Shown: positions 6,654 to 61,863 of the stretch, piece by piece | Layout of the letters: every line of letters begins with the position of its first letter | How positions within the stretch are numbered: the stretch's first letter is position 1 | Source: a virus | Strand: one strand, 5' to 3' | DNA: 64,000 nucleotides | Virus record (IMG/VR): IMGVR_UViG_3300020170_000012 | Location: 1 to 64,000 of that record | The notes under the pieces: model-generated | The model's input: only the letters and a program-made list of their open reading frames with translations | The model's database searches: none | Told to the model about the DNA's origin: nothing | Position numbers and translations under genes: made by a program

Positions 6654-7397
6654 TCAGAACTTGTAGCTAATGCCCGCGCGAGCGACGCCGATGTTGTGCT
6701 TGACGTCGGCGCCAATTGGGATGACCCCTGTGCATTCGCTGGTGCAAACCACTCCGGTCGTAGCCGCGTGAAGATCGCCAAGGAAATAGTGGAGATACTC
6801 GACGCGCAATCCCCAGTTCGGGGTCAGCGCGTATTCGAGGCCAGCACCAGCCACCGCGCCATTGAGTGTCGGATTGGTCGAGAACTGCGAACCGTCGGTC
6901 CCGGTGACGGTGAATTCGGTCCCTGACCAGCCCCAGCCGGCCGTACCGAAGGCCATGAGGTTGGGTGCTAGGATGACACCAAACCGGCCGCGCAGCGACG
7001 CCAGCCATCGGCTTTTCGAGTTGATGTTGCCGATGAAGCCTGGGTTCTGAACGGTGCCGTCCATCGTAGCAATGTCGCCATCGCCCTCAATGCCGAGATA
7101 GAAATTGCCGCCGAAACGAGAGCCAAGGCCGGCATGCAGACCACCGACAGCGCCGAACGGAGCAGTGTCGAAGCCCATGGTGCCAAATGGGTCGGAGGCT
7201 GTGCCGGCACCGCGATCCCAGCCGACGCCGCCGTGGGCGCCGATGTAGAAGCCATCCCAATAGCTCATGTAGACTTCGGCGGGCGCCTTGGTCACAAGCG
7301 GCCGTACCGGCATATCGGCGCCGTGGGCAATCCCGAGCTGCGACCACAGAAAACCGCCGACGGCGGCAATAACCGTGGCGTACATGACTTTTTTCAT
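6654..7397 (-). CDS. Outer-membrane beta-barrel porin-family protein
   Basis: A 247-residue protein with a signal peptide (MKKVMYATVIAAVGGFLWS...AHGA). Alternating beta-barrel strands follow (YWDGFYIGAHGGVGWDRG, FYLGIEGDGDIA, WLASLRGRFGVIL, NWGLRVEYLHYFLGD), and it ends in the aromatic outer-membrane signature SYKF. This is the OMP_b-brl/Omp25-Omp31 layout that is abundant in Rhizobiales. It has a strong ribosome site (AAGGAGG), its own candidate promoter upstream and its own terminator, so it is an independent unit like a lysogenic-conversion or superinfection-exclusion gene. It is unlikely to be a virion protein; recent acquisition from the host is inferred. Confidence 0.85.
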   Translation of the reverse strand: MKKVMYATVIAAVGGFLWSQLGIAHGADMPVRPLVTKAPAEVYMSYWDGFYIGAHGGVGWDRGAGTASDPFGTMGFDTAPFGAVGGLHAGLGSRFGGNFYLGIEGDGDIATMDGTVQNPGFIGNINSKSRWLASLRGRFGVILAPNLMAFGTAGWGWSGTEFTVTGTDGSQFSTNPTLNGAVAGAGLEYALTPNWGLRVEYLHYFLGDLHAATTGVVCTSECTGVIPIGADVKHNIGVARAGISYKF

Positions 7398-18747: not shown

Positions 18748-19341
18748 TCAAGCGGTGACGAAGCCTTGTCCAATTTCTGAGTCGAGTTCCGCAATCGCTC
18801 TGGCGAGGATGACTGTTCCAAGTTGGTGATCCCAAGTTCCGCGGCTCCAGCCTCCTGGCCCGTCATGCACAAATTTCCCACCTCGGTATATGCTGGTCCC
18901 TGACCAAGGATACCCGCTTGGGCGGCTATGCTCTCTTGGGCCGAAACCGTTCCACTTCTCCCACTCATAGACGGCAAATTCCCAGGTGTGCGGGTTCCTG
19001 TTAAACGCCGCCACCACGTGATCAAGGTCGAGAGCATCGGTAACTCCTTCCTCCCAGGTTGCGAACGGCCCGCGGTTGCGGGGCCAGTCCGTGGTTTTCT
19101 TGTCGGTCCCGATGATGCGGTCACCATTGCCGAAGTAGGCATCGAAGCGTGGGTTCTCGCGCTCGAACACCGGCATCGTCCAGAGCGCCGGCACGCCGCA
19201 GTCTTTTTGCACCGCAAGAAAGCGGTCCCGGTGCGCCAGGAGCTGCTTTGCGGCGGTCGTCGCCTCCGTCATCCGCAGGAACTTCATGGCAGCAAGGTCT
19301 TGCTTGTATTCCGGTTCCAAGGCTTCAAACGTCAGGTCCAT
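18748..19341 (-). CDS. Endolysin (phage lysozyme-like)
   Basis: A 197-residue protein with the conserved pattern of phage lysozyme-like endolysins: PVFERENPRFDAYFGNG (ERE motif with a likely catalytic Glu), RGPFATWEEGVTDAL, then YEWEKWNGFG, PSGYPWSGT and GGKFVHDG. There is no signal peptide, so release would need a holin. It overlaps the end of the upstream GNAT gene by 17 bases, placing lysis at the end of the glycan-gene operon. The family is confidently a lysin; the exact bond cleaved (muramidase is likely) is inferred. Confidence 0.75.
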   Translation of the reverse strand: MDLTFEALEPEYKQDLAAMKFLRMTEATTAAKQLLAHRDRFLAVQKDCGVPALWTMPVFERENPRFDAYFGNGDRIIGTDKKTTDWPRNRGPFATWEEGVTDALDLDHVVAAFNRNPHTWEFAVYEWEKWNGFGPREHSRPSGYPWSGTSIYRGGKFVHDGPGGWSRGTWDHQLGTVILARAIAELDSEIGQGFVTA

Positions 19342-19777
19342 CTGACTTCTCCATTAGTGTGACACTATGCCTCAGTGTAACCTGAAAATCAACGAACCCG
19401 ATCGAGCGGAACATTTCGAGTGACGTGGTGTTTTTTGGGTTGATGTTGGCGATAAACTTGTTGGGGATAGGATGGCGCCGCATCAGCTCCTTCACGGCCC
19501 ACGCTCCGTATCCCTTCCGCTGGTCGCTTTTCCGGATATCAATCCCAATCTCCTCACGATTGGTGATGTAGGCCGAACCGACGCGCACGTCATCAGCCAT
19601 GACGATGAACCACCCGCGGTACGGCTTCGAACGGTAGAACTCGATGTGGTCAGCGACCGTCGGCATGACACGGTGGCTGAGCGAAACCGTGTCGATGTCG
19701 CGCTGTCGGAGTAGTTCATAGAGGAACGGGATGGCGTTGAGATCGCAATAGACGTCGACAAGCGCCATGTTAGCCAC
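19325..19777 (-). CDS. GNAT acetyltransferase, PseH-like
   Basis: A 150-residue GNAT. The GTG at 19777 has AGGAG seven bases upstream and lies inside the end of the synthase gene (8-base overlap). Core features are WFIVMADDVRVGSAYI, IGIDIRKSDQRKGYG (acetyl-CoA loop Q-R-K-G-Y-G, residues 86-91) and the C-terminal FIANINPKNTTSLEMFRSIGF. The NP-x-N-x-x-S...F-x-x-x-GF ending is that of RimJ/PseH-type sugar or peptide N-acetyltransferases. Next to NeuB-, DegT- and PseB-like genes, the best guess is acetylation of an amino-sugar intermediate. Confidence 0.7.
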   Translation of the reverse strand: MANMALVDVYCDLNAIPFLYELLRQRDIDTVSLSHRVMPTVADHIEFYRSKPYRGWFIVMADDVRVGSAYITNREEIGIDIRKSDQRKGYGAWAVKELMRRHPIPNKFIANINPKNTTSLEMFRSIGFVDFQVTLRHSVTLMEKSDGPDV

Positions 19778-20528
19778 GAAGAATCTCCTCGATTTCGCGA
19801 ATGCGCTTGGTTTTCATGCTGAATACCTGCCATGTCCATGAAAAAGCATCGTCGGGAGTGCTGACACCTGGAAGTTTGAGATGCCACTCGATCATCGTGG
19901 CACCGTAGGTGGCGGCAATATCACCGGCGTGGTGGTCGGTCGTGTGGTCGGACAATCCCCAGAGCCATTGCTTGCTGGGCCACCTCTTATCTACCCATGC
20001 CCACTGCCGCAGGCGAGCGAGATTGGCGGCACGCGCCGATACCGCATAGTCGGTCGCGTGCAGAACCGTCAGCTTGGAATAATTTGGTGGGAAGACATCT
20101 TCGCCCTGGTTGGCAGACATGATCAGCGGTTTTCCCGTTTTCATTGCCGCGCCGATCAACAAGCTGTAGTAAGCCTCAAAACTGGATATCTTGTAGCGTG
20201 GACAGCCTAGCGTCTCCAGGAACGCCACGTCGTCAGGATCGAACACAGAGGCGTGCCACGTCAGGCCGCCCTCGTTGGCGAACCCGATCAGCTCCGGAAA
20301 CCATTCGCGTGGGGTGTGGGTCTGCACATAGAGCTGGGCGAGCGCGGCGTGGCTGTACGCATTCTTTATCCGTGGATGGGAGCTGCGCTTCCCGGCAAGC
20401 AATGTCGGCTGAAAGCACTGAAACTTGACGCCGGTCGCACCGGCGATACACGCCTCGACGATCAACTTCTTGGCGTTCTCCAGACTGCCGCCGTGGCAGC
20501 CAGAGATTTCTGCGATGATCTCGATCAC
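19770..20528 (-). CDS. NeuB/PseI-family nonulosonate synthase-like protein (no SAF domain)
   Basis: A 252-residue TIM-barrel protein matching the catalytic domain of sialic/pseudaminic/legionaminic acid synthases: IIAEISGCHGGSLENAKKLI, GVKFQCFQP (residues 34-41), RYKISSFE, PLIMSAN, LHATDYAV, GLSDHT (191-196) and IEWHLKLPG in place of IEKHF. Canonical enzymes (about 340 residues) add a C-terminal SAF/antifreeze-like domain that is absent here; the protein ends just after the barrel. The usual AEIGxNHxG is altered to AEISGCHGG. Family condensation is PEP plus a 6-carbon amino sugar to give a 9-carbon acid. Coupled by ATGA to the upstream aminotransferase. Confidence 0.75.
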   Translation of the reverse strand: MIEIIAEISGCHGGSLENAKKLIVEACIAGATGVKFQCFQPTLLAGKRSSHPRIKNAYSHAALAQLYVQTHTPREWFPELIGFANEGGLTWHASVFDPDDVAFLETLGCPRYKISSFEAYYSLLIGAAMKTGKPLIMSANQGEDVFPPNYSKLTVLHATDYAVSARAANLARLRQWAWVDKRWPSKQWLWGLSDHTTDHHAGDIAATYGATMIEWHLKLPGVSTPDDAFSWTWQVFSMKTKRIREIEEILRG

Positions 20529-21604
20529 AGCTTCGCCGCCTTCCTCAATGCATTGCCGACCTGGATGAGATCATTCTCATACATCCACGCGCACAGCTCG
20601 AAGACGATGGTGGTCTTGGAGATGTGCTCAGCGATCGGCCCGTCGAACCGCGTCGTGTCCTGGAACGCCGGCAAGTGGGAGAGAGGGCGATACATGGGTG
20701 CCGCAGGCACCCCATCTTGTGTAAGCGATTGGATGATGGCATCACGCTTATCCGCCGGAACCTGGAAAGCATAGCAATAGCGCGCTGACTTGGTGCCGGG
20801 ACGGGGACTGATTGGCACGAAAGCCGACGGCATATGATCATCGAGACGCTTGGCGAGCCAATTCAGGTCGTAGATCGTCCCGTCGATCCGCGCCATCTGC
20901 GATAGCACGAGGATCGCGCTGATCTCCGTTGGCCGTAGGTTAAGTCCGATACTGGCATGAATTGCCGCCTCAGCATTTTCGCCGTGATTGATGAACATTC
21001 GCATCGCGTCGGCAAGGTGAGCATCATCGCAGGAGATAATCCCCATCTCGCCGGCGTTGATCTGCTTGTGGACATTGAAACTTGTCACACAGATATGTGC
21101 GATGTTCTCTGACCACGTGCCTTGACCATAGTTCGAAAGGATGCCTTGGGCGTTGTCGAGAATCAGAGCGTCGATGTCTCCCCACTGCGAGTCGATCGGG
21201 TGGCCCCATAGCGATGTCCCGATTACGACGTCCATCGGCAAACAGTTTGAGGCAGCCTTGTAGCTGATGCCGCCGTGTGCGTCGACATCGAGGAACTCCA
21301 ACGTCGCATCGCAATAGAGCGGAACAGCAGCGGTCGCGGACATGGACAATTCTGGTACACCGACACGCATCGTCGGACCGATATCCATCGCAACGCAAGC
21401 TGCGTGCAGCCCCGATGTCGCGCTGTTGCAGCAGATTGCGTGCTTCCGATTGAATTTTGTGCACCACATTTCCTCAAGACGCTGCACCGCGGCGCCGCCC
21501 CATGGATTGCCGGCGAGGTAGCCGGACAGCGGCGAGCCCATCTCAAGGAACCTTGTAACCGCTTTGATATCGTCCTGGGTTATTGACTGGCGGATGGGGA
21601 TCAT
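20525..21604 (-). CDS. DegT/DnrJ/EryC1-family sugar aminotransferase (PseC-like)
   Basis: A 359-residue PLP-dependent fold-type I aminotransferase: CNSATSGLHAAC (cofactor phosphate site), ILDNAQGI (Asp contacting the ring), and SFNVHKQINAGEMG with the Schiff-base Lys at residue 180. Length and motif order fit the nucleotide-sugar C4 aminotransferases that act after a 4,6-dehydratase such as PseB. It overlaps the synthase downstream (ATGA) and a small membrane ORF upstream. Neighbours support the second step of a nonulosonate-like pathway. Confidence 0.85.
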   Translation of the reverse strand: MIPIRQSITQDDIKAVTRFLEMGSPLSGYLAGNPWGGAAVQRLEEMWCTKFNRKHAICCNSATSGLHAACVAMDIGPTMRVGVPELSMSATAAVPLYCDATLEFLDVDAHGGISYKAASNCLPMDVVIGTSLWGHPIDSQWGDIDALILDNAQGILSNYGQGTWSENIAHICVTSFNVHKQINAGEMGIISCDDAHLADAMRMFINHGENAEAAIHASIGLNLRPTEISAILVLSQMARIDGTIYDLNWLAKRLDDHMPSAFVPISPRPGTKSARYCYAFQVPADKRDAIIQSLTQDGVPAAPMYRPLSHLPAFQDTTRFDGPIAEHISKTTIVFELCAWMYENDLIQVGNALRKAAKL

Positions 21605-21698
21605 GAGCGTTGCTCCAGAAAAATAATGCGAGGATGCACAGGCAGAAGATGGCGAACACGATGAAGACAGCGCGCTCTTGGTCGTCGGGGTGCATCAT
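21543..21698 (-). CDS. 51-aa single-span membrane protein (holin-like candidate)
   Basis: The ATG at 21696-21698 overlaps the stop of the MazG gene (ATGA). The protein reads MMHPDDQERAVFIVFAIFCL then continues hydrophobic to ALFFW, giving one membrane span with an acidic N-terminus and short soluble tail. Its last 62 bases overlap the aminotransferase start in another frame. Because the endolysin is at the end of the same operon, a holin or antiholin role is conceivable but unproven. Confidence 0.45.
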   Translation of the reverse strand: MMHPDDQERAVFIVFAIFCLCILALFFWSNAHDPHPPVNNPGRYQSGYKVP

Positions 21699-22015
21699 TT
21701 GATGAACGTTTTGAAGCCGTGGTCCTTGGATGTCTTGTTGAACTTTTCTGCAATCGCCGACGGAAGATCAATTCCTTCCATGGTTGCGATCATGTCAACG
21801 ACGATGACGATATCAGCTAATTCTTCAGCCAACCGTTCCACCGTGGAGCGGCTACCAACAATGCCTAGCCGCTCCCGTTCAAGCTTCTTGGCGATATTGC
21901 ACGCCTCTCCGGTTTCTCCGGCAAGCTCGCAACCAAAGAATGATAGACCAAGCTTGCCGTTCGGGTCCCACTCCTTAGAGCGGCGCGCGTTCGCTTGTCT
22001 CAGTTTTTCGAGCAT
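21695..22015 (-). CDS. MazG-like nucleotide pyrophosphohydrolase
   Basis: A 106-residue all-alpha NTP-PPase. GCELAGETGEACNIAKKLERE supplies the E-x-x-E-x-x-E pattern and VERLAEELADIVIVVDMIA supplies the downstream E-x-x-D metal site, as in the MazG and dCTPase families. A single short domain like this is common in phages, where it trims nucleotide pools or (p)ppGpp-related signals. It lies between the PseB-like gene (stop/start overlap) and the small membrane ORF within the glycan operon, but probably acts in nucleotide metabolism. Confidence 0.8.
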   Translation of the reverse strand: MLEKLRQANARRSKEWDPNGKLGLSFFGCELAGETGEACNIAKKLERERLGIVGSRSTVERLAEELADIVIVVDMIATMEGIDLPSAIAEKFNKTSKDHGFKTFIK

Positions 22016-22878
22016 TACAGGCTCCTCAGCTCCTCGCGCAATTCCTCAACCGACATCCGCCGCGCATCCGCGCTCGACACGCAGGGGACGATCTCCTCGT
22101 GCTGTTTCTCCCACGGTCCGAGCCCGACCACGGTGCCAGCTTCGAGCCCCATGGCCGTGAGCAGGTCGCCGAGGCGGTAGGCCGGCATGCCACGCGACCA
22201 GATGAACCGATCAGCACCATCAAAATCAAACAGCCGATGGCTGACCAGGTCGACTGCCTGATCGATTCGCATGAAAAAACGCGTGGCGTTAAGATCGGTA
22301 ACCATCACCCGTTTCATCATTCCGCCGGCCGACGCAGCTTGCCAAGTGCGCACGACAGACCCTCTCGACCCAAAGATGTTGCCGTAACGCACGACCGAAA
22401 ACTTCATCCTACCGCCGGCCAGGATGTTGGCCGCCAGCATCAGGCGTTCGGCGGTGAGCTTGGTGGCGCCGTAGAGGTTGACCGGGTTGCACGCCTTGTC
22501 GGTCGAGAGCCCCACCATATGCTTGGCGGTCGGGGTCCGTAGCGCCGCGTGGATGACGTTGGCGGTCCCTTCGACGTTGGTCCGTACCGCCTCGATAGGA
22601 TCGTTCTCGCACTTTTCGATGCGTTTGAGAGCCGCCGCATGCACAATATGCGAAATGTTATGCATCGCCATTTCAAGGCGACGCTCGTCACGGATATCCC
22701 CAAGATAAAACCGAAGACGATCAGCGCCAAGGTGTCCATCGAACTCCCTTTCCATCTCGGCCTGCTTCAGCTCGTCGCGCGACAGGACAACGATGCGCTC
22801 GACGCCGATGCGAAGCATCTCAGGAACGAAGGCGTGCCCGAAAGTTCCGGTTCCGCCTGAGATTAGAACGCCTCTCAC
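22015..22878 (-). CDS. UDP-GlcNAc 4,6-dehydratase-like SDR (PseB/CapD-like)
   Basis: A 287-residue extended SDR. The NAD-binding motif GGTGTFG is at residues 8-14, followed by DIRD (61-64), HAAALKRI, and LSTDKACNPVNLYGATK with Tyr136 and Lys140 of YxxxK. The T-D-K-A-x-x-P x-N-x-Y-G-A-T-K string is diagnostic of the PseB/FlaA1/CapD short dehydratases. Expected reaction: dehydration of a UDP-N-acetylhexosamine to the 4-keto-6-deoxy sugar. It lies next to MazG and is ATGA-coupled to a DNA-binding-type gene upstream. Length is slightly below the usual about 330 residues, mostly at the C-terminus. Confidence 0.85.
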   Translation of the reverse strand: MRGVLISGGTGTFGHAFVPEMLRIGVERIVVLSRDELKQAEMEREFDGHLGADRLRFYLGDIRDERRLEMAMHNISHIVHAAALKRIEKCENDPIEAVRTNVEGTANVIHAALRTPTAKHMVGLSTDKACNPVNLYGATKLTAERLMLAANILAGGRMKFSVVRYGNIFGSRGSVVRTWQAASAGGMMKRVMVTDLNATRFFMRIDQAVDLVSHRLFDFDGADRFIWSRGMPAYRLGDLLTAMGLEAGTVVGLGPWEKQHEEIVPCVSSADARRMSVEELREELRSL

Positions 22879-23102
22879 TGCACCCCCTCAATGATATCGT
22901 CCGGAAGGCTGATGCCTTCATTGACAAGCGCCATGACCAGGAGGCGGCGGACCGCGCCGGAGCTGGTCAGCACCGGATTGTCGATGCGGGTGTGCTGCCA
23001 CACGTCGATCGCCTTCCAGATGGCGGGCGACAGGCGAACGGAGCGGGCAGGAGTGACGCCGGTCGGAGGACGACCTAGCGGACGCTTTGGCTTTTTCTGC
23101 AT
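22875..23102 (-). CDS. Small ribbon-helix-helix-like protein
   Basis: A 75-residue basic protein: KKPKRPLGRPPTGVTPARSV, then RLSPAIWKAIDVWQ, and a second helix (GAVRRLLVMALVNEG). A strand followed by two helices is the RHH/CopG-type layout. It is the first gene of the minus operon and faces the divergent DUF932 gene across a promoter region rich in TGTCAC motifs, so it could regulate that region. DNA binding is inferred from shape only. Confidence 0.55.
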   Translation of the reverse strand: MQKKPKRPLGRPPTGVTPARSVRLSPAIWKAIDVWQHTRIDNPVLTSSGAVRRLLVMALVNEGISLPDDIIEGVQ

Positions 23103-23130
23103 GATTTATTTTCTGTCACACGATTAAGTC

Positions 23131-23161
23131 TTGACTTTCGAATTCCTGTCACTCATATACT
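23131..23161 (+). promoter_or_regulatory. Promoter of the shared family upstream of the DUF932 gene
   Basis: TTGACT (23131-23136), 19-bp spacer carrying TGTCAC, TATACT (23156-23161), 87 bp upstream of the DUF932 start. A second TGTCAC (23113-23119) lies just outside, toward the divergent minus-strand gene. The spacer is two bases longer than in the other family members. Confidence 0.55.
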
Positions 23162-23247
23162 CGTTTGGTGGTCGATGGCAAGGGGCCTTCCAGGGTTTCG
23201 TCCCAAAAAGGTTGACCCGAACCGGAAGACACCAAAAGGAGCACATC

Positions 23248-24324
23248 ATGCAAACCGGCCTATCTCTCCGTGATCTCGCCGCAAAGCTTGAGACGGAGAA
23301 GCACCAGAAAAAGGACATGATTGTCAATACCGGCTCGACTGAGCTGGTGGTGTTCAACGGCGACCTGCATCTGGACACCCAGGACAATGGCGGCGGTCTC
23401 TATCCGCTTCGTCCGTTGGCCCACAACCAGCTCGCCGACCATACCGGCGTTCCCCTGAAATACTACAAAAGAATGCACCAGGACGCGCCAGACCTTCTCG
23501 CCAAGAACGTCAATACATGGCTCCATCGCAATCCTGAACCTCGGATGTTCCGGACCATGGCCGGCAAAGGCCGGGCGTGGCTTTCGAACCGCTACTTGCG
23601 GATTGAGAACGAGCTGATCGCCGAGGTGGCGCTCAATGCCCTGATGGCCAGCGGCATGCGACCGAATCAGGTCGTGTCCTGCAACGTCACCGAAACCAAG
23701 CTCTACATCCAGGCGGTGATGCCGAACCTGGAGGCCCAGGTCAAGGGCTCGCGCCGGGTCGGCGACATCATCCAAGGCGGTGTCGTCATCACCAACTCGG
23801 AAGTCGGCAAGGGCCGGATCGATGTCAGCGAGTTCGACCACGCCCTGGTCTGCCTCAATGGCATGGTTGGACAGTCCCTGTTCAAGAAAACCCACCTTGG
23901 CGGCGCCCTGGATAGCGACGAGGCGCTCTTGCAGGACGACACTAAGCGGACTATGGACGACGCCCTTATCCTGCAAATCCGCGACATGATCGCCGCGGCA
24001 ATCGATCCGATCCGGTTCCGCAACCGCCTTGAGCGGATGGAAACCCTCACCCGCAAGGAAATCGAGGGCAATCCGGCCGAAAGCGTCAAGGTTCTGACCA
24101 AGGTTCTTGGTCCTGCCGTCGGCTTGACTGAAAAGGAGGAGGGGTCGATCCTCAATGCCCTGATCCGTGGCGGCGACGTGTCGGCCTGGGGTCTCCTCAA
24201 TGCCGTGACGTTCCAGGCCAACGCCGAGACGAACTACGACCGCGCTGTTGAGCTGGAAGCGGCCGGCGGCAAGCTCCTCGCCCTCCCGGCGCCGGAGTGG
24301 TCGAAAATCCTCAAGGCTGAATAG
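23248..24324 (+). CDS. DUF932-family phage/plasmid protein
   Basis: A 358-residue protein. The ATG at 23248 has AAAAGGAG just upstream, so it is preferred over an in-frame ATG 39 codons earlier that overlaps the promoter. The sequence LSLRDLAAKLETEK, YPLRPLAHNQLADHTGVP, KYYKRM and KGRAWLSNRYLRIEN follows the DUF932 (phage/plasmid-like TIGR03299) pattern. Proteins of this family are common early genes on phages and plasmids and are of unknown biochemical function. A terminator follows directly, so the gene is probably monocistronic. Confidence 0.75.
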   Translation: MQTGLSLRDLAAKLETEKHQKKDMIVNTGSTELVVFNGDLHLDTQDNGGGLYPLRPLAHNQLADHTGVPLKYYKRMHQDAPDLLAKNVNTWLHRNPEPRMFRTMAGKGRAWLSNRYLRIENELIAEVALNALMASGMRPNQVVSCNVTETKLYIQAVMPNLEAQVKGSRRVGDIIQGGVVITNSEVGKGRIDVSEFDHALVCLNGMVGQSLFKKTHLGGALDSDEALLQDDTKRTMDDALILQIRDMIAAAIDPIRFRNRLERMETLTRKEIEGNPAESVKVLTKVLGPAVGLTEKEEGSILNALIRGGDVSAWGLLNAVTFQANAETNYDRAVELEAAGGKLLALPAPEWSKILKAE

Positions 24325-24338
24325 GTTCCTCCCCACTG

Positions 24339-24367
24339 GCCGGGCGCAAATGCCCGGCTGTTTTTTT
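24339..24367 (+). terminator. Rho-independent terminator after the DUF932 gene
   Basis: Stem GCCGGGC (24339-24345) and GCCCGGC (24352-24358) with a six-base loop, then TG and seven T (24361-24367). It is 15 bases after the DUF932 stop. Confidence 0.9.
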
Positions 24368-24377
24368 AGGAATCCAC

Positions 24378-24527
24378 ATGATCACCGGAATTGTTCTTTT
24401 CGTCATCGGCGCGATTATGTATTTCACCGGCGTATTCCGGTGGAACTTTGGCCTCATGGCCGCCGGTTTCGTCATCGGGATGAGTGGGTTTGTCGTGTTT
24501 GTGTCGAATGCAGTCCAGCTACCATGA
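24378..24527 (+). CDS. 49-aa two-span membrane protein
   Basis: Reads MITGIVLFVIGAIMYFTGVF, then RWNFGLMAAGFVIGMSGFVV, giving two short hydrophobic helices with a basic turn. The TGA overlaps the next ATG (ATGA). It follows the terminator by only ten bases, so its promoter is unclear. Function is unknown. Confidence 0.5.
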   Translation: MITGIVLFVIGAIMYFTGVFRWNFGLMAAGFVIGMSGFVVFVSNAVQLP

Positions 24528-25027
24528 CCGACGACTATGACCCGGTGGACGATTGCTACAAGTCCGTCGCCGAAGCCCAGCGTATCATTCGCGCGCGCAT
24601 GCTGGCCGGCGGACCGGGCTGGACGCCACACAAATATCATCCGCTATGCAACGGATGTTGCAAGCCTCTTGACTTTATGTCACACAATAACTATATTAAT
24701 GGTAGGTCGGCAGCGATACGAGACGGCCTAGGCCGGGCTTCCCCAAGAAGCATTACTGCCGACCGACTAACCTTTGCAGAAGGCCGCGACATGAATGACC
24801 CATTCCCCTTCGACCTTCCGGTCGATGACGATCCAATTCCCGCATTCCTGCGGTTGACCGCCGAGGAGCGCACCGAGGCTTGGAAGGGCCGCAAGCTCAC
24901 CAAGCCAAGCGGCGACACCAAGCAGGACTATTCCGTGCCGCGGTCTCTTGATGCCGCCGGTAGGGCTATCCTAAAAGAGAAAGACAAGGCCGAGGCTGCC
25001 CGGCTGAAAGCCTTGCGGAAGCGGTAG
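24524..25027 (+). CDS. Hypothetical protein; possibly two genes fused in one open frame
   Basis: The frame starting MTDDYDPVDDCYKSVAEAQ at 24524 runs 167 residues without a stop. The N-terminal part has a Cys/His cluster (HKYHPLCNGCCKPLD). The C-terminal part from ATG 24791 (MNDPFPFDLPVDDDPIPAFL, LTAEERTEAWKGRKLTKP) resembles a separate small phage protein type. A promoter at 24669-24697 lies inside the frame, and 24700-24790 shows no recognisable domain. The probable reality is an upstream gene whose stop is missing or unrecognised plus an independent 78-residue gene at 24791-25027. Confidence 0.5.
   Translation: MTDDYDPVDDCYKSVAEAQRIIRARMLAGGPGWTPHKYHPLCNGCCKPLDFMSHNNYINGRSAAIRDGLGRASPRSITADRLTFAEGRDMNDPFPFDLPVDDDPIPAFLRLTAEERTEAWKGRKLTKPSGDTKQDYSVPRSLDAAGRAILKEKDKAEAARLKALRKR
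24669..24697 (+). promoter_or_regulatory. Promoter of the shared family (TTGACT-17-TATATT)
   Basis: TTGACT (24669-24674), a 17-bp spacer with TGTCAC, TATATT (24692-24697): the best sigma70 match of the family. It would drive the protein starting at ATG 24791 and the following genes. Confidence 0.75.
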
Positions 25028-25036
25028 GAGAACAAG

Positions 25037-25375
25037 ATGGACGATCAGGAATTCAATGAACAAGTCATCAATTCCTACGAAATCATGTACATGGTCGAAA
25101 CGTTTCTGGCCGCGAGTTGCAGCCAGCACCTCACCGCCACCGGAGTCCTGGTTGGCCTCTTGAGGATCGCGGCCCGATGCGCCAAGGCTGCAGACAACGA
25201 AGAAAACCGTGACGCATTCATGTCGCTGGCTGAGGAAATCTCCAGGCGTGAACCGTCCGGACTGTGCGGTTGCACTGATTGCATCACAGCACGCGCTGCG
25301 GCACGCAACCGCGTCAAGGAGAACTGGGATATGGAAATCCCGACCGAGTTTCCACCAACGGTAGGGAACGCGTGA
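25037..25375 (+). CDS. Hypothetical helical protein
   Basis: A 112-residue protein with AGGAG six bases before the ATG. It is mainly helical (FNEQVINSYEIMYMVETFLA, TGVLVGLLRIAARCAKAAD) with a Cys pair near residue 78 (CGCTDC). No family is recognised. The stop overlaps the next start (TGATG). Confidence 0.55.
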   Translation: MDDQEFNEQVINSYEIMYMVETFLAASCSQHLTATGVLVGLLRIAARCAKAADNEENRDAFMSLAEEISRREPSGLCGCTDCITARAAARNRVKENWDMEIPTEFPPTVGNA

Positions 25376-25851
25376 TGAATGCCCTGTCCGCAATTCTTGT
25401 TGGCATTGGTATCGCCATCATCGTCCTGCTTGCATTGTGCGTCAGGAGCCGCGCCGAATGCCTTCACTCTGCCCAGGCTGTTTGGGATGCCCATGATGGC
25501 GCCCACGCCACATGGTCGATGCGCCGCGGCGAGAAGTGCTGGTATGCCCGCGGCCAACGGAACAAGGCCGAGGCCGCGGGGGAGATCATCCCGTTGCCTC
25601 GGCCTGCGAAGCGAGTAGGGCCGATAACCCTAGTGACGGGCTCGGACCTACTCCTTTCGACTCCGCAAGTGATAATCGCGGCTGAGCACGACCAATTCAG
25701 AACTTGGTCGACAGACTCTGCTCTCGATACTGACGTTTCAGCACTTTTGTTTTTGCAGGACCGGATGATTTCTGCCGGCTTGCGGCTGTGGTTACAGGCG
25801 AGCGTCGAAAGAGCCCGGCTCGTGCAAGCCCGGCTTCTACCATCTCCGTGA
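25375..25851 (+). CDS. Membrane-anchored protein of a Bradyrhizobium-like type
   Basis: A 158-residue protein with an N-terminal membrane segment (SAILVGIGIAIIVLLALCV). The segment after it (AECLHSAQAVWDAHDGAHA, TWSMRRGEKCWYARG) has the pattern S-A-x-x-V-W...H-A-T-W...K-C-W, recalled from many small secreted proteins of Bradyrhizobium and relatives. The last 155 bases overlap the convergent gene at 25697-26026, and codons there look less convincing, so the natural end may have moved. A periplasmic or inner-membrane location is inferred. Confidence 0.5.
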   Translation: MNALSAILVGIGIAIIVLLALCVRSRAECLHSAQAVWDAHDGAHATWSMRRGEKCWYARGQRNKAEAAGEIIPLPRPAKRVGPITLVTGSDLLLSTPQVIIAAEHDQFRTWSTDSALDTDVSALLFLQDRMISAGLRLWLQASVERARLVQARLLPSP

Positions 25852-26026
25852 CCGCCCTCGGCCGCGACACGATCCGATGGGATAGACACCACCGATCGAG
25901 GGCTATCAAAACCGTCGGAGGAAACCTCGTCAGAACCCCCGTCGGACGCTTACTATGAGGCGTTCGTGGACGCCCGCGCTTGGTGCGCGCCTTGACCCCG
26001 CGCGCAGAGGGTTTTGCTTTCTTCAT
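25697..26026 (-). CDS. Small basic RHH-like DNA-binding protein
   Basis: A 109-residue basic protein: KKAKPSARGVKARTKRGRPR, then TGVLTRFPPTVLIALDRWCL and AVTEMVEAGLARAGLF. The strand-helix-helix layout resembles ribbon-helix-helix proteins and is similar in plan to the one at 22875-23102. ATG at 26024-26026 is preferred to the TTG upstream. A TTGACTTTTATT element lies about 35 bp upstream (26058-26063). Convergent with, and overlapping, the membrane-protein gene. Confidence 0.5.
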   Translation of the reverse strand: MKKAKPSARGVKARTKRGRPRTPHSKRPTGVLTRFPPTVLIALDRWCLSHRIVSRPRAVTEMVEAGLARAGLFRRSPVTTAASRQKSSGPAKTKVLKRQYREQSLSTKF

Positions 26027-26111
26027 GGCAGGCTGAACCAAGCACAGAAAAAATAAAAGTCAAGCCCGTCTTGCGGTTAAAACGATATCATGTCATACAG
26101 AAAAGCTTAAC

Positions 26112-26672
26112 ATGAGGGCACATATGTCAATCGTCGCCATGGACATCTCAACCACGAGATTGGTGCTTATTGCCTCCTATAAAGCCGTGCAGGAGCACGT
26201 CGAGTGGCTCAACGACAAGAAGCTCATGAGGTGGTCGGAGCAGAGGTACAATACTCACAATCTTTTCACTCAACAGTATTTCCTTGACAAGGCTGCTGCC
26301 GACGGCAATCCGCTGGTGTGGGACATTCTTAGATATGAAGACTTGGATGGGCGCCCAAATTACATTGGTCGCATCATCGGCAGCCTGCACGCCTACTGTA
26401 ACGAGCGCCACAGGAGAGTCGACATGGGCATCATGCTGGGACCGCAGTATCACGGCAACGGCTACGCCGCCGAAGCTTGGGACGCCGCCTGCAAGTATCT
26501 CGCCGCCAAGCATGGCATGCGCAAGTTCGAGGCTGGCTTCGCCGACGGCAACGTGCCGATCCTGAAAATGCTGACGCGCCTCGGCTGGGCACCGGAATGC
26601 CGGCGGGAAAACCACTTCATCATCGACGGCGAATCCTACGGGCTCGTCCAGTTCGGCAAGGTGTATCGATGA
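26112..26672 (+). CDS. GNAT acetyltransferase (RimJ/RimL-like)
   Basis: A 186-residue GNAT; a second ATG at 26124 (MSIVAMDIS) is better placed after GAGGG and may be the true start. Features: VEWLNDKKLMRWSEQR (typical RimJ/RimL N-terminus), YIGRIIGSL, VDMGIMLGPQYHGNGYAAEAW with acetyl-CoA loop H-G-N-G-Y-A, and a C-terminal GNVPILKMLTRLGW. It heads a plus-strand run with an oxidoreductase and a cytidylyltransferase fusion, so an amino-sugar acceptor is plausible. PseH and LegH belong to the same broad family. Confidence 0.75.
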   Translation: MRAHMSIVAMDISTTRLVLIASYKAVQEHVEWLNDKKLMRWSEQRYNTHNLFTQQYFLDKAAADGNPLVWDILRYEDLDGRPNYIGRIIGSLHAYCNERHRRVDMGIMLGPQYHGNGYAAEAWDAACKYLAAKHGMRKFEAGFADGNVPILKMLTRLGWAPECRRENHFIIDGESYGLVQFGKVYR

Positions 26673-26866
26673 AGTCGCCCGGACATCCGGACAATGATGA
26701 GGGGCCGGGGTGCCTGGGAATAATCATGCTCCTGGTCGTGTTCGTTTTTTTTGGACCACCCCTAGTGTCGGTGGCCATTGAGTTCTGGATACAGCTCGGA
26801 TGTATGAAGGGCTGGGGAGAGGCGCATGCGTGCGGAAAGCACATGATTGAGTGGAACCTGCAATGA
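26669..26866 (+). CDS. 65-aa single-span membrane protein
   Basis: Starts at an ATGA overlap with the GNAT stop and ends at an ATGA overlap with the oxidoreductase start. One membrane segment (GIIMLLVVFVFFGPPLVSVAI), then a short tail with two Cys (GCMKGWGEAHACGKHM). Tight coupling argues for a real gene; role unknown. Confidence 0.5.
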   Translation: MKSPGHPDNDEGPGCLGIIMLLVVFVFFGPPLVSVAIEFWIQLGCMKGWGEAHACGKHMIEWNLQ

Positions 26867-27741
26867 GATTCATGGTTTTAGGCGCCGCCGGCCGCATGGG
26901 GAGCATGCACGCGCGGCATCTGATGGAGCTGGGACACGAGGTTGTCCAAGTTGATCCTGCATTACCGCCTCTGATGGACAATAACGAGAACTGGTGGGTG
27001 CTCCCTGCCGACGGTGTCGTCATCGCCACGCCCGCCGAGCTGCATGCCGAGCACCTCATGAAGGCGATCAAGCACGATTTTCACGTCTTCATCGAAAAGC
27101 CGATCTGCCTGATTCCGCACTTGCCTGATGCTCGGCGCGCGGTGCAGACAGCGATGGAAAAGCGCCTCGTTGTGTCCGTTGGTTACAATCTGCGCTTCCA
27201 CCCGCTGGTGGTCATGGAGCGGCAGCGCATCGTCAGCCGGGCAATGTCGCCTTTGTGGGGGAGCTTCGTATTGCGGCAAAACATGACGCGGCACGTCAAC
27301 TTTCTCGAAGAATGGGCAAGCCACGAAATCGATCTGGCGCTGCATTTGTTTGGCCGCCACTGGCAGGATATCAAGACGTTGACCCGTAGCGATCTGCCGG
27401 GCGTCGAACAAATTCAAATTATGATTCGCCACCAGGACGGCGAAAACCCCGTCAGCTTTATCCACGTCGACGGCTGGAAGACCGAACCGTTTCGGCGCTC
27501 CTTCACCATCGTCGACCAGGACGGCGTTTCGCGTCACCACGATATCGAGACGAACCATGTTCATCCAGATCACTACAAGACCGAACTCAAGGACTGGATA
27601 GCAAAAATAGAGGGAAACGATTTCAACTTGCGCCTCGCTACCGGAGCTGATGGGATTGCTGTGATCGATCTTCTCCAACGTGTGATGGTCAAAAATGGTG
27701 TTAGGAAATCCGCGGTTGACAGATCGCCAGCCGGAATATGA
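26863..27741 (+). CDS. Gfo/Idh/MocA-family sugar oxidoreductase
   Basis: A 292-residue NAD(P)-dependent oxidoreductase. The Rossmann motif MVLGAAGRMGSMHARHL lies at the N-terminus, the family E-K-P motif (FIEKPICL) at about residue 78, and WASHEIDLALHLFG in the catalytic region gives the substrate-side His. Family members oxidise or reduce sugars or nucleotide sugars. In nonulosonate and flagellin-glycan loci such a gene often accompanies the aminotransferase and CMP-transferase, as here. The start at 26863 overlaps the upstream stop and is preferred to an ATG four codons earlier. Confidence 0.8.
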   Translation: MRFMVLGAAGRMGSMHARHLMELGHEVVQVDPALPPLMDNNENWWVLPADGVVIATPAELHAEHLMKAIKHDFHVFIEKPICLIPHLPDARRAVQTAMEKRLVVSVGYNLRFHPLVVMERQRIVSRAMSPLWGSFVLRQNMTRHVNFLEEWASHEIDLALHLFGRHWQDIKTLTRSDLPGVEQIQIMIRHQDGENPVSFIHVDGWKTEPFRRSFTIVDQDGVSRHHDIETNHVHPDHYKTELKDWIAKIEGNDFNLRLATGADGIAVIDLLQRVMVKNGVRKSAVDRSPAGI

Positions 27742-27931
27742 GAAGACACTCCCCGGCATGGCGCACTGGGCCGGCACTGGGCCGCCTGGGACGACCTGCG
27801 GCGGCTGCCGGTTTTATAGAGGATGGTGCCAGCAATTCCGTAAGATGCTGCATCATAAAACTCGCGCCCAACTTCAGCTCCCGCCCGCCACTCCATCCTG
27901 TAAATACTTCGAACCAAAGGTGAAGCGATGA
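27695..27931 (+). CDS. Cys-rich small protein
   Basis: A 78-residue protein overlapping the end of the oxidoreductase gene by 47 bases. It has HWAGTGPPGTTCGGCRFYRG, WCQQF and TPSCKYFEPKVKR: four Cys in a C-x-x-C...C...C pattern that recurs in small phage and alphaproteobacterial proteins and suggests a metal site. Its TGA overlaps the next ATG. Possibly a structural or regulatory Zn/Fe protein; function is unknown. Confidence 0.6.
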   Translation: MVLGNPRLTDRQPEYEKTLPGMAHWAGTGPPGTTCGGCRFYRGWCQQFRKMLHHKTRAQLQLPPATPSCKYFEPKVKR

Positions 27932-29967
27932 AAACTGGAATCATTATCCAGGCGCGGATGGGCTCAACCCGCTTGCCCGGCAAAGTTCTGATGAAGCTGC
28001 CGAAGGAGAATCCGCAGCGGCGCGCGCTCGATTGGACGATTGAAGCTTGTGGCAAGACGGATTTTCCTGTCTATGTCGCCACCTCAACCAATCAAGAGGA
28101 TAATGAGATTGTCGAGTATCTGGAAGGCAGATACAGCTCCCTCGGTATCTTCCGCGGCTCACCCGACGACGTGCTCGACCGCCTCTACCAATGCGCCAAG
28201 CTCCATCAGCTCGACATCATCGTCCGCGTCACCGGCGACTGTCCGTTCATAGACCCGGAGGTACTTAAGCAGGTAGTTTACCTGCGCGAGCTTACCGGGT
28301 CAGACTACGCTTCCAACGTCGACCCCCCCATGTGGCCGGACGGCCTCGACGTGCAATGCGTCACCTTGCCCGCTCTTGAGCGGGCTCACTTGTTGGCGAC
28401 AGACCCGTCCGATCGCGACACCGTCCTGCAATATATCGTTCACCGCCGCAATGAGTTCAGCGTGGCCATCCTGCCGTGCCAGCTGCCAGGCATGGCCGTT
28501 CATCGCTGGGTTCTTGACCATGCGGCGGACTACGACCTTTGTTCGCTGATCGCAACCCGTCTCCTGGTCGCTGGCAAAGGGCCTGGAGCGAGCTTCGCCG
28601 ATGTCCTGGCGGTGGCGCCGGAACCGCAGGATAGGTCTTTGCTTGGACGCAATGAGCGTTACAACACCCAGCGGACCGCAGAGCTAAAGGCGGATAGCTT
28701 TGCCATCAGCACCGCTCGGCTGCCGGTGGCATTAGCGAGACAGCCATACGGGGCGTCGACCTACAGCAAGAGCCATGTCGCCTGGGGGCGTGACGCGCCG
28801 CTGTTCCTCACGCACTCGCAGGGCTCGCGTGTGTTCGATGTCGACGGCAACGAGTTCATTGACATGACGGCCGCGCTGGGGACGACGATCCTGGGTTACT
28901 GCGATCCTTACGTCAGGGAAGCGATCGAGCGGCAGCTCGACCTTGGCATCGCCTTTCCGCTGGCATTTCATGACGAGACCATCGTTGCCAACGCGCTGAT
29001 CCACCGGCTGTTCCCAGACCATCCGTTTGGCGACCACAAGGTCGTTTTCGGCAAGAACGGCTCTGACGTCACCAGCGCCGCGGTGCGGCTGGCGCGGGTT
29101 GCCACCGGGCGCCTGCCGGTGGTCAAGCTGTACGGTGGATATCACGGATGGCACGATTGGACGGTCGCTGACAGCCCGCGCGGAGATGGCTGCATACCGC
29201 TCAACGCCGTCTTCAAGATACGAGACGATTTCACCGACGGGCAGAACGTCATCAAAGCGATCGAGGGCAACCTGATCCTTAAAACCGCCGCCTGCCTGAT
29301 CCTGGAACCCGACATGGTGCCGCCGGAGTGCCTGGGCCGCATCATCGATATTTGCCACCGCAGCGGAACCCTGGTGATCTTCGACGAGATGGTGACGGCG
29401 TTCCGATATCCGGGTGCGACCGTAGCTTCCAGCTACAGGCTACACCCCGATCTTCTCTGCTTAGGCAAAGCCTTGGGAAATGGCATGCCGATCACGGCAT
29501 TGGTCGGTAGTGCCGAGCTGATGGACAAGTTTGTCACGGGCGCCGAAGGCGCCCCCTACGCCTTCTATTCCGGAACTCACTTCGGTGAGACGTTGTCGCT
29601 TGCGGCTGCCGGCGCCGTTCTTGATCGCATGGGGCCTTATGAGCAGAGACAAATCTGCGGGATGGCCGCATACCTCTCCTCGCATGTTCATGATCTTTTA
29701 AGACATGAAATCGACGACAATCTCGCCTCGTTCAAAGGCGGCTGCATCCCTAAGCTGATGTTCCACGATCCGGATGTCGCCGCCAAGTTCCGCCGGGAGA
29801 TGGCCCACAACGGTGTGCTGTTCTACACGGCGTTCCTGCCGACCCTGATGCACACGCAAAAGGAGCTGGAGCACGTGCTCGGTGCCGTCGAGGATTCCTT
29901 GCTGGCAATCAGGAACGGCAAGGCGCGCGGTGAGGCGGTCGGCGGCAGCCGGATCATGCGCTCTTAA
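27928..29967 (+). CDS. Cytidylyltransferase (SpsF/NeuA-like)-class III aminotransferase fusion
   Basis: A 679-residue two-domain protein. Residues 1-235 are a cytidylyltransferase: IIIQARMGSTRLPGKVL (nucleotide-binding start), VRVTGDCPFIDPE, SNVDPPMWPDGLDVQ. Residues about 270-670 are a glutamate-1-semialdehyde-aminomutase-like class III aminotransferase: VFDVDGNEFIDM, FGKNGSDVTSAAVRLAR, YGGYHGWHDW, VIFDEMVTAFR and LCLGKALGNGMPI with PLP Lys514. Both halves keep their main motifs. SpsF/PseF-type domains activate acidic sugars with CTP; the second half would move or transfer an amino group on the same metabolite. It is the last gene of the plus-strand glycan run and meets the convergent gene stop-to-stop. 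Confidence 0.8.
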   Translation: MKTGIIIQARMGSTRLPGKVLMKLPKENPQRRALDWTIEACGKTDFPVYVATSTNQEDNEIVEYLEGRYSSLGIFRGSPDDVLDRLYQCAKLHQLDIIVRVTGDCPFIDPEVLKQVVYLRELTGSDYASNVDPPMWPDGLDVQCVTLPALERAHLLATDPSDRDTVLQYIVHRRNEFSVAILPCQLPGMAVHRWVLDHAADYDLCSLIATRLLVAGKGPGASFADVLAVAPEPQDRSLLGRNERYNTQRTAELKADSFAISTARLPVALARQPYGASTYSKSHVAWGRDAPLFLTHSQGSRVFDVDGNEFIDMTAALGTTILGYCDPYVREAIERQLDLGIAFPLAFHDETIVANALIHRLFPDHPFGDHKVVFGKNGSDVTSAAVRLARVATGRLPVVKLYGGYHGWHDWTVADSPRGDGCIPLNAVFKIRDDFTDGQNVIKAIEGNLILKTAACLILEPDMVPPECLGRIIDICHRSGTLVIFDEMVTAFRYPGATVASSYRLHPDLLCLGKALGNGMPITALVGSAELMDKFVTGAEGAPYAFYSGTHFGETLSLAAAGAVLDRMGPYEQRQICGMAAYLSSHVHDLLRHEIDDNLASFKGGCIPKLMFHDPDVAAKFRREMAHNGVLFYTAFLPTLMHTQKELEHVLGAVEDSLLAIRNGKARGEAVGGSRIMRS

Positions 29968-60126: not shown

Positions 60127-60129
60127 CTC

Positions 60130-60753
60130 ATGCAGCGTGACACCTTCGTCGAGGGGGAGGGCCAAGCATGGCTCTCCCGCAACCTCCACGATCTCGGCAA
60201 GCGTGATCCGGTTATGGAGGCGATGGAGCGATGGAATCTCGCCCCGCAGTCCATTCTCGAAATCGGTTGTTCTAACGGTTGGCGGGTCGAGCGCCTGATC
60301 GAACGTTACAACTGCAAGGTCAAGGGGATCGATCCAGTGGTCCCCAGGATGCCTCACCCGACCACATTCACCAATCTACACCACGGCCACGCGGCGGCGC
60401 TGTTTCATTACGGCAACGCAGAATTCGATACTGTCATCTATGGGTTCTGCCTCTACCTCTGCGACCCGCAGGACTATCCGTCGATCGTCAAGGAGTGTGA
60501 TCGCGTGCTCGCCGACGGCGGTGATATCATCATCCATGATTTTGTGGTGACGAATATCGGAGACCCTTGGCGGACCCCTTATAAGCACAAGGACGGAGTC
60601 TTTTCGCATCATGTCCAGTTCCAACGCTTGTGGACGGGGTTTCCGCAATATACACAGGTGGCGTGGTCGACGCCCGATAAGGAATTTGGTGATTACGTTG
60701 TTCTTCTCCACAAAGACCTGAACGGCGCCTTCATCGACAAACCCAACCCATAG
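60130..60753 (+). CDS. SAM-dependent methyltransferase
   Basis: A 207-residue class I methyltransferase. Motif I is SILEIGCSNGWRVERL (residues 42-57), then VKGIDPV, FDTVIYGFCLYLCDPQD (motif IV-like) and VLADGGDIIIHDFV. This is the methyltransferase type found in glycan or tail-modification contexts. Four bases after the Rossmann-fold gene. Substrate unknown (sugar, small molecule or protein). Confidence 0.8.
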   Translation: MQRDTFVEGEGQAWLSRNLHDLGKRDPVMEAMERWNLAPQSILEIGCSNGWRVERLIERYNCKVKGIDPVVPRMPHPTTFTNLHHGHAAALFHYGNAEFDTVIYGFCLYLCDPQDYPSIVKECDRVLADGGDIIIHDFVVTNIGDPWRTPYKHKDGVFSHHVQFQRLWTGFPQYTQVAWSTPDKEFGDYVVLLHKDLNGAFIDKPNP

Positions 60754-60940: not shown

Positions 60941-61300
60941 ATGCCGGTCAATTATTCCCAGGCCACCATCAACGCACGCCTCAACGACGTCATTGCGCAG
61001 ATTGGCGGCACTGGGAATCTTGTTTTTTCTGATGCCGGTGGCGCCGTCCTGGTGTCGATTCCGCTGGCCTCTGGTGTTGGCATCGTGTCTTCAGGCGTGC
61101 TAGACTTTACGACGCCAGTGACAGGAATAGCCGTTCTTGGCGGCGTTCCCACGCAAGCAAAAATTACCTCCGGATCAAGCACTGTCATCAGCGGCTTGAC
61201 GGTGAGTTCTGGGGCCGGGTCGGACATCTTTCTGGCCCCCTTGCCGATCATAGTCGGGCAGGCGGTGACATTGAGCCTGGGGACCATCGTCGGTAGGTAG
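60941..61300 (+). CDS. Phage structural protein
   Basis: A 119-residue beta protein: MPVNYSQATINARLNDVIAQ, then VFSDAGGAVLVSIPLASGVG and LTVSSGAGSDIFLAPLPIIV. The A-T-I-N-A-R-L-x-x-V-I start and ...L-x-x-P-x-x-V-x-G-Q-x-V end recur in small structural proteins. Likely virion-associated. Confidence 0.55.
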   Translation: MPVNYSQATINARLNDVIAQIGGTGNLVFSDAGGAVLVSIPLASGVGIVSSGVLDFTTPVTGIAVLGGVPTQAKITSGSSTVISGLTVSSGAGSDIFLAPLPIIVGQAVTLSLGTIVGR

Positions 61301-61320: not shown

Positions 61321-61863
61321 GTGGGTCTTTACTCGATTTCCAACGGGTCATCGTCGGCCCTGCCTATCCAGCAAGCTATCGCAGCGGCCTACAAGACTCA
61401 GTTCGCGGTTGGAAACTCTACCGCGGCAATTCCGACGATCGGTGCCGGCTCACTGGTACGCAGCAAGATTTACGATCTGCTCATTGGAACTGTCGCTACG
61501 CCTGGAGACACCACAATCGAAAATGATATCGTCCGGGCGACGCTCGGCAGCACCCCGGCCGGGACGACTTCGATATCGAGTCTTTCGTCCACCTTCATGC
61601 TCGAACCCGGGCAATTGGGGTTCGTAGCTTATGCCTCCCTGAATTCGACTGCAGAGGTTGGCATAGGCGCCCTACTTGGCGAGCCGTTTTATTTTCCGCT
61701 CAATCAGCGTGCCAGCTATCGATGGGTCTGTAATCCAGGATCGGAAATCGTCATCGCGGCAGTGTCGTCGGGAACCGGCAACAATGGGGTGGCGATGCGG
61801 TCACGATCCGCGGCATACACCGGCACCATGGGCATTACCGGCTTTGTCAACGAAGGTTCGTGA
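61321..61863 (+). CDS. Phage structural protein
   Basis: A 180-residue protein from GTG 61321. Beta-rich with SNGSSSALPIQQAIAAAYKT, YDLLIGTVATPGDTTIE, FMLEPGQLGFVAYASLN and NQRASYRWVCNPGSEIVIAA. The Q-R-A-S-x-R-W-V-x-x-P-G segment is recurrent in phage minor virion proteins. Structural role inferred. Confidence 0.6.
   Translation: MGLYSISNGSSSALPIQQAIAAAYKTQFAVGNSTAAIPTIGAGSLVRSKIYDLLIGTVATPGDTTIENDIVRATLGSTPAGTTSISSLSSTFMLEPGQLGFVAYASLNSTAEVGIGALLGEPFYFPLNQRASYRWVCNPGSEIVIAAVSSGTGNNGVAMRSRSAAYTGTMGITGFVNEGS

Follow-up and report, generated by a model that had tools for sequence, protein, structure and literature searches.

Two bacterial pathways are among the closest described relatives of the system reported here. 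The cytidine monophosphate (CMP)-pseudaminic acid pathway comprises PseB, PseC, PseH, PseG, PseI and PseF and is accompanied by Maf, which O-glycosylates serine and threonine residues of flagellin (PMC11339370, PMC3426422) and whose central domain resembles Cst-II (PMC11339370). The Bacillus subtilis sps genes (spsC, D, E, F, G and M) form a legionaminic acid pathway that decorates a particle surface, the spore, and SpsF is assigned the CMP-sugar synthetase role (PMC7439481). Here we describe a phage-borne nonulosonic-acid-type pathway without PseG, predicted from the sequence and well supported by it. It lies in the window, bases 1-64000 of the 67,782-bp IMG/VR virus record of a soil-type phage (IMGVR_UViG_3300020170_000012; G000), which also encodes a compact protein of the Maf/GT42 superfamily at 59251-60126. 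We consider it reasonably probable that the phage encodes a CMP-nonulosonate (pseudaminic-type) pathway and its own compact Maf-like transferase, which would probably O-glycosylate virion proteins, with a hydrolase taken from the host.

Known phage precedents are single genes only: O-acetyltransferases whose targets are the non-ulosonic acids of host capsules (PMC6586298) and, within a lysis cassette, a domain call of NeuB type (PMC6469090). No earlier report of a phage nonulosonate pathway was found in the open-licence literature. Among 50,697 phage records there are 1 to 3 NeuB protein matches, including an apparently bacterial one on a Moritella viscosa contig, no match covering 80% of the whole cytidylyltransferase-aminotransferase fusion, and one match of the Maf-like protein. 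This last match is a Microcystis phage protein (L319; PP496355.1, 34781-35584) that carries the label 'type 11 methyltransferase'; either the label may be mistaken or this relative of the Maf-like protein may be a fusion. Virion glycosylation is described for mycobacteriophages (Freeman et al. 2023, as cited in PMC12691614), and in Corndog glycosyltransferases and an O-methyltransferase lie between the portal and protease genes (PMC4351075). The likeness lies in having glycosyltransferase and methyltransferase genes in the structural block. We know of no nonulosonate synthesis in mycobacteriophages. The giant viruses (mimivirus, chlorella viruses) encode their own sugar-nucleotide pathways for virion decoration; these are eukaryotic viruses and the sugars are other ones.

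With the bacterial pseudaminic pathway the window shares PseB/PseC/PseI-type enzymes, a GNAT, a cytidylyltransferase and a Maf-superfamily transferase, and its fusion is also present in bacterial Pse loci. It differs in having no PseG, enzymes that score below the curated equivalog cut-offs, a NeuB without the SAF domain and a Gfo/Idh oxidoreductase in place of an aldo/keto reductase (AKR). The Maf-like protein has 291 residues and its gene lies in the virion block, whereas bacterial Maf has about 650-900. With the sps pathway it shares the SpsE/NeuB, SpsC/DegT, SpsD/GNAT and SpsF families. SpsG is present there, while in the phage the dehydratase and DegT lean to Pse, an aminotransferase is fused to the SpsF-type domain and the genes are phage-borne.

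Biosynthetic enzymes of the window

A first-pass annotation had named seven genes on two operons, and all seven are open reading frames (ORFs; starts and ends called mechanically) that carry the named domains in Pfam or NCBIfam (Table 1). The two operons stand, and the description was incomplete: a third locus at 59251-60753, with a methyltransferase and the Maf-like gene, had been missed, as had a MazG-like gene among the otherwise correctly listed minus-strand genes. The minus-strand genes are closely set, with overlaps of 4 bp between NeuB and DegT, 8 bp between GNAT and NeuB and 1 bp between MazG and PseB. The 4,6-dehydratase, 4-aminotransferase, acetyltransferase, synthase and cytidylyltransferase families are all found in the window, the acetyltransferase as a generic GNAT only; family searches gave no PseH match for the window GNATs.

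In the profile searches against Pse, Leg and Neu families that had been proposed, the PseB, PseC and PseI models score best. The dehydratase reaches 275 bits with PseB and 47 with LegB, the DegT protein 127 with PseC and 99 with LegC, and NeuB 136 with PseI and 98 with NnaB, the LegI model not being among the matches in this last comparison. By these scores the three proteins lean to the pseudaminic rather than the legionaminic models. None passes the NCBIfam equivalog cut-off (408, 424 and 340 bits for PseB, PseC and PseI), so the enzymes are Pse-pathway-like and not assignable as curated Pse members, and the exact sugar is not nameable. The nearest PDB structure to the PseB-like protein is 2gn4 (Helicobacter FlaA1/PseB, 1.4e-59), with the TDK and YGATK motifs aligned; its match to the LegB model is 2e-12.

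Catalytic residues, on whose presence the first-pass annotation had made its proposal depend, are retained in NeuB, both aminotransferases and the fusion. NeuB has a PF03102 barrel with the phosphoenolpyruvate (PEP), metal and sugar residues (E7, K35, Q37, K113, S116, S193, D194, H195, E214, H216 and D226), which places it in the family as annotated, and its nearest structure is a pseudaminic acid synthase, 8h2c. The DegT-like protein retains its pyridoxal phosphate (PLP) lysine, Lys180. The fusion retains 73 of 77 conserved columns, PLP Lys514 among them. NeuB stops 2 residues past the barrel, and the C-terminal SAF (antifreeze-like) domain has no match among the scanned window ORFs. This domain is missing in 25 of 52 viral NeuB ORFs (duplicates included, and some contigs unchecked for viral hallmark genes) versus 4 of 54 bacterial ones. 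SAF-less phage NeuB proteins, for example at L026:7655-8473 and L002:9992-10630, may mark a different substrate-binding mode.

The fusion is also found in a bacterial Pse locus, L110, together with PseB, PseC, an AKR, PseG (2e-97), PseH (3e-37) and PseI. A separate cytidylyltransferase was not seen in this full locus, suggesting that the N-terminal half of the fusion is likely the CMP-sugar synthetase. In bacterial clusters (L110, L080) the AKR occupies the Gfo/Idh position.

The hydrolase step (PseG/LegG), already noted as missing, was not found elsewhere in the record either. PseG (TIGR03590) has no match across the whole 67,782-bp record or in 30 other viral records, while the same model matches 7 of 14 control genomes and also recognises the bacterial locus L110. 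Presumably the host supplies this enzyme, which is the simplest reading. The MazG-like protein was considered as the missing hydrolase and rejected as a general solution; it is a member of the operon with no counterpart in the fetched relatives.

Cassettes in related phages

A search with the fusion retrieved 43 viral contigs. About ten of them (L005-L011, L013-L015) carry a cassette in the order GNAT, two methyltransferases, Gfo/Idh, fusion, PseB, DegT and NeuB, NeuB being seen where the contig extends far enough, and L002 has a matching order with one methyltransferase found. This synteny in about ten other phage contigs argues that the gene set did not come together by chance. The cassettes sit beside terminase and portal genes, with homologues of the window terminase close by. 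Relatives have a single cassette, whereas in the window the same system is broken into three places. All 14 phage fusions in the tree form one clade (SH-aLRT 99) grouped with alphaproteobacterial fusions; this is a quick tree with a long-branch warning, the window and L004 lying on a long branch. In a further group of phages (L019, L023-L031, L038, L041), portal, major head and SU10-type adaptor genes surround NeuB, PseB, an AKR, an aminotransferase, a GNAT and SpsF, and the AKR of this group parallels bacterial Pse loci.

Several neighbours in these contigs deserve mention. A conserved protein of 60-114 residues with the motif NNxxWMxILRIAL lies near the cassette NeuB or methyltransferase (L007:9955-10137, L011:14195-14410, L014:14677-14892, L002:3011-3355). 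HisF-like and PAPS-reductase/N-type-PPase-like proteins are encoded at L003:10645-13040, on a NeuB contig, and recall the WbpG/PseA-type amidotransferases for acetamidino sugars. In L004, a contig of 5.3 kb, the gene most closely related to the fusion (57%) is preceded by a DNA methylase gene (PF01555) at 1333-2343.

The Maf-like protein and its linkage to NeuB

The protein encoded at 59251-60126 has no match to a Pfam or PHROG family. A single-sequence query for its relatives yielded almost none, likewise for the terminase; alignment queries succeeded, and 60 relatives were used for the homology searches. Some relatives show weak CST-I and MptE-like matches in Pfam. The gathering cut-off of PF01973 (Maf/MptE-like) was not reached: the window protein has no match, and 4 of the 60 relatives match weakly (best 0.027). 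In a PDB profile search the nine best matches are all bacterial GT42 sialyltransferases, at weak E values of 0.017-0.07. An AlphaFold model (pLDDT 86) gives CstII as the best Foldseek match (E 7e-6, probability 1.00, TM 0.38/0.47), followed by MptE pyrophosphokinase and a Pasteurella sialyltransferase. Local hhalign of its family with the bacterial Maf central domain gives a probability of 88% (E 3e-6, 157 columns), and the PseB, Gfo/Idh, NeuB, DegT, GNAT, methyltransferase, terminase and fusion controls reach at most 1.6%. The Maf profile was used because CST-I is too rare in the sampled genomes (1/299) for a GT42 profile. Homology over the Rossmann-like core, the mark of the Maf/GT42 superfamily, is thus found by both hhalign and Foldseek. 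By fold and remote sequence similarity to CstII-type GT42 sialyltransferases and MptE-like/Maf proteins, at TM below 0.5, the protein belongs to this superfamily, home of the known nonulosonic-acid glycosyltransferases. By eye, the TS of the CstII 'TSG' motif is retained and a counterpart of His188 is not obvious; the protein is a candidate transferase. GxAPSS and WFEIH are conserved motifs of the Maf-like protein. The methyltransferase next to it is about 31% identical to ones inside bacterial Pse loci (L069, L070, L084, L105, L107).

The Maf-like gene and NeuB go together. Among records of at least 45 kb, NeuB is present in 16 of the 18 selected by the Maf-like protein, and the 14 selected by terminase have both genes in 7 cases, neither in 6, NeuB only in 1 and Maf-like only in 0 (Fisher p 0.0047; the sample is small and some records may be fragments). 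In other lineages the two genes are about 2 kb apart (L171, L173, L174). Relatives of two Ser/Thr-rich genes, 60941-61300 and 61321-61863, flank the Maf-like gene within the structural block of about 35 contigs. These families average 21% and 23.5% Ser plus Thr (range 21-24%) versus a window protein mean of 12.4%. In the window itself both genes follow the Maf-like gene and its methyltransferase neighbour. The model of 61321-61863 (pLDDT 69.5) gave jelly-roll matches only, none significant. Given the Ser/Thr-rich flanks, Maf acting on Ser/Thr of cytoplasmic proteins and the gene arrangement of Corndog, O-glycosylation of the virion is our best guess for the target.

Table 1. Genes of the nonulosonate-type loci and candidate acceptor genes in the window.
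Feature	Position	Strand	Evidence or remark
GNAT acetyltransferase, candidate PseH-like step	19325..19777	-	PF13302 9.5e-6, weak; relatives adjoin NeuB in other phages
NeuB/PseI-family synthase, TIM barrel only, 252 aa	19770..20528	-	PF03102 2e-31 (109.6 bits); best NCBIfam PseI 1.4e-39
DegT/PseC-like PLP aminotransferase	20525..21604	-	PF01041 3e-39; PseC 8e-37; LegC 3e-28
MazG-like nucleotide pyrophosphohydrolase	21695..22015	-	PF03819 2.6e-4, just under cut-off; inside minus-strand operon
PseB-like UDP-GlcNAc 4,6-dehydratase, inverting type	22015..22878	-	NCBIfam PseB 4.7e-82
Ribbon-helix-helix (RHH)-like small ORF, 75 aa, possible regulator	22875..23102	-	RHH by eye; 4-bp overlap with PseB-like start
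Second GNAT acetyltransferase, leads plus-strand operon	26112..26672	+	2e-14; syntenic in relatives
Small hydrophobic ORF, 65 aa	26669..26866	+	ATGA overlaps with both neighbours
Gfo/Idh/MocA oxidoreductase	26863..27741	+	2e-14; equivalent position in relatives
Fusion: SpsF-type cytidylyltransferase (N) and class-III GSA-type aminotransferase (C)	27928..29967	+	CTP_transf_3 4.5e-17; aminotransferase 2e-36
Compact Maf/GT42-superfamily protein, candidate CMP-nonulosonate O-glycosyltransferase, 291 aa	59251..60126	+	Profile, fold and profile-profile searches
S-adenosylmethionine (SAM) methyltransferase	60130..60753	+	33-43% identity to cassette methyltransferases of relatives
Ser/Thr-rich (21%) small protein of structural block, candidate acceptor	60941..61300	+	Flanks Maf-like gene in relatives
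Ser/Thr-rich (22%) beta-rich protein, candidate acceptor	61321..61863	+	Flanks Maf-like gene in relatives; low-confidence model

Proposed pathway and alternatives

We infer which sugar is made, in which order the enzymes act, what the transferase does and that the virion is its target, as follows. UDP-GlcNAc would be converted to a 2,4-diamino-2,4,6-trideoxyhexose by the PseB-like dehydratase, the PLP aminotransferase or aminotransferases, the GNATs and Gfo/Idh. A host PseG would presumably release the sugar, and the minimal NeuB would join the freed sugar with PEP. The SpsF-type half of the fusion may then activate the NeuB product with CMP, and the compact Maf/GT42-type transferase may O-link the CMP-sugar to Ser/Thr-rich virion proteins, with SAM methyltransferases modifying the sugar. 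This scheme is built on gene identity, active-site residues, the cassette, the fusion clade, the co-occurrence of NeuB with the Maf-like gene, the synteny with Ser/Thr-rich genes and the absence of PseG.

Several points weigh against it. None of the 31 viral records has a PseG, which leaves the pathway incomplete unless the host helps, and the window NeuB is without SAF, which helps to bind substrate in known dimeric NeuBs. The CstII match has a TM of only 0.38/0.47, CstII's catalytic His has no evident counterpart in the family, MptE-type pyrophosphokinases have the same fold as this match, and hhalign to Maf falls to 5.7% when lineage-1 rows only are used. The co-occurrence figures ignore relatedness among the records, the biosynthetic genes of the window lie outside the structural block, and the Ser/Thr-rich neighbours are candidate, not proven, virion proteins. 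The SAF-less NeuB can also be read, like the scores far below equivalog cut-off for every enzyme and the class-III aminotransferase and Gfo/Idh foreign to the textbook Pse pathway, as a sign of a different product: the fusion and Gfo/Idh might serve, for instance, a modification unit of acyl or amino type, and NeuB might use another aldose. We regard this as rather unlikely, given that the same fusion occurs in complete bacterial Pse loci (L110), where its N-terminal half is likely the CMP-sugar synthetase.

The first-pass annotation had left the purpose between decoration of the phage's own particle and remodelling of the host surface for superinfection exclusion. Phage CMP-nonulosonate could feed host glycosyltransferases, or the Maf-like enzyme could act on flagellin or another surface protein and mask receptors; Maf is known for flagellin (PMC11339370, PMC3426422), and the phage has an outer-membrane beta-barrel gene, common to L002, that could fit such a role. 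Yet in about 35 contigs the Maf-like gene keeps its place among the structural genes, with Ser/Thr-rich genes on either side, no further glycosyltransferase family is found among the window ORFs, and superinfection exclusion found no direct support. The scanned window ORFs contain no integrase families, so lysogenic conversion is not suggested. The location of the Maf-like gene favours virion decoration, and host-surface remodelling, though a somewhat stronger contender than a different product, is doubtful. Bacterial contamination or decaying, functionless cargo is very improbable. A paper dealing with cellular contamination in viral metagenomes does include neuB reads from viromes (PMC3877843), but here one contig carries terminase, SU10-like portal, primase-helicase and RecE/YqaJ exonuclease genes along with RecT, and its ends form a 154-bp terminal direct repeat (99.4% identity), which indicates that the genome is probably complete. 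The frames are intact, the catalytic residues are retained, and the genes are conserved across diverged phages. Prophage cargo or contamination was rejected on the hallmark genes, the terminal repeat and the conserved synteny.

Genome context

GC content is 59.5% and fairly uniform over the region, and the tRNA search found none. The nearest annotated phages by terminase are MW202675 (37%) and Roseobacter phages CRP-901/902 (32%). A sibling contig (G069) has 82-93% DNA identity across aligned parts and spans only 39.6-57.8 kb, outside the nonulosonate gene coordinates, so it is uninformative on these genes. The outer-membrane beta-barrel gene (6654-7397, minus strand; PF13505 1e-12; L002:11213-12067 in the cassette contig) may encode a surface effector. 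Between the two biosynthetic operons, 23131-24324 (+) encodes a function-unassigned phage protein (phrog_1362, 7e-55). A small ORF at 25697-26041 (-), RHH-like by eye, is divergent from the plus-strand operon and may form a regulator pair with 22875-23102.

Significance

NeuB is near-absent from public phage records. The diverse environmental phages described here repeatedly carry whole pathways, linked to a transferase candidate of the structural block. It is an evenly balanced proposition that at least two phage lineages make a CMP-pseudaminic-like sugar using minimal enzymes and that a new compact Maf-like family transfers it to virion proteins rich in Ser and Thr; these would be the first nonulosonate-decorated phage particles. 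If so, phages would make and wear acidic sialic-acid-like sugars, with a bearing on the charge, adsorption and stability of the particles, and compact Maf-like enzymes may be useful for glycobiology.

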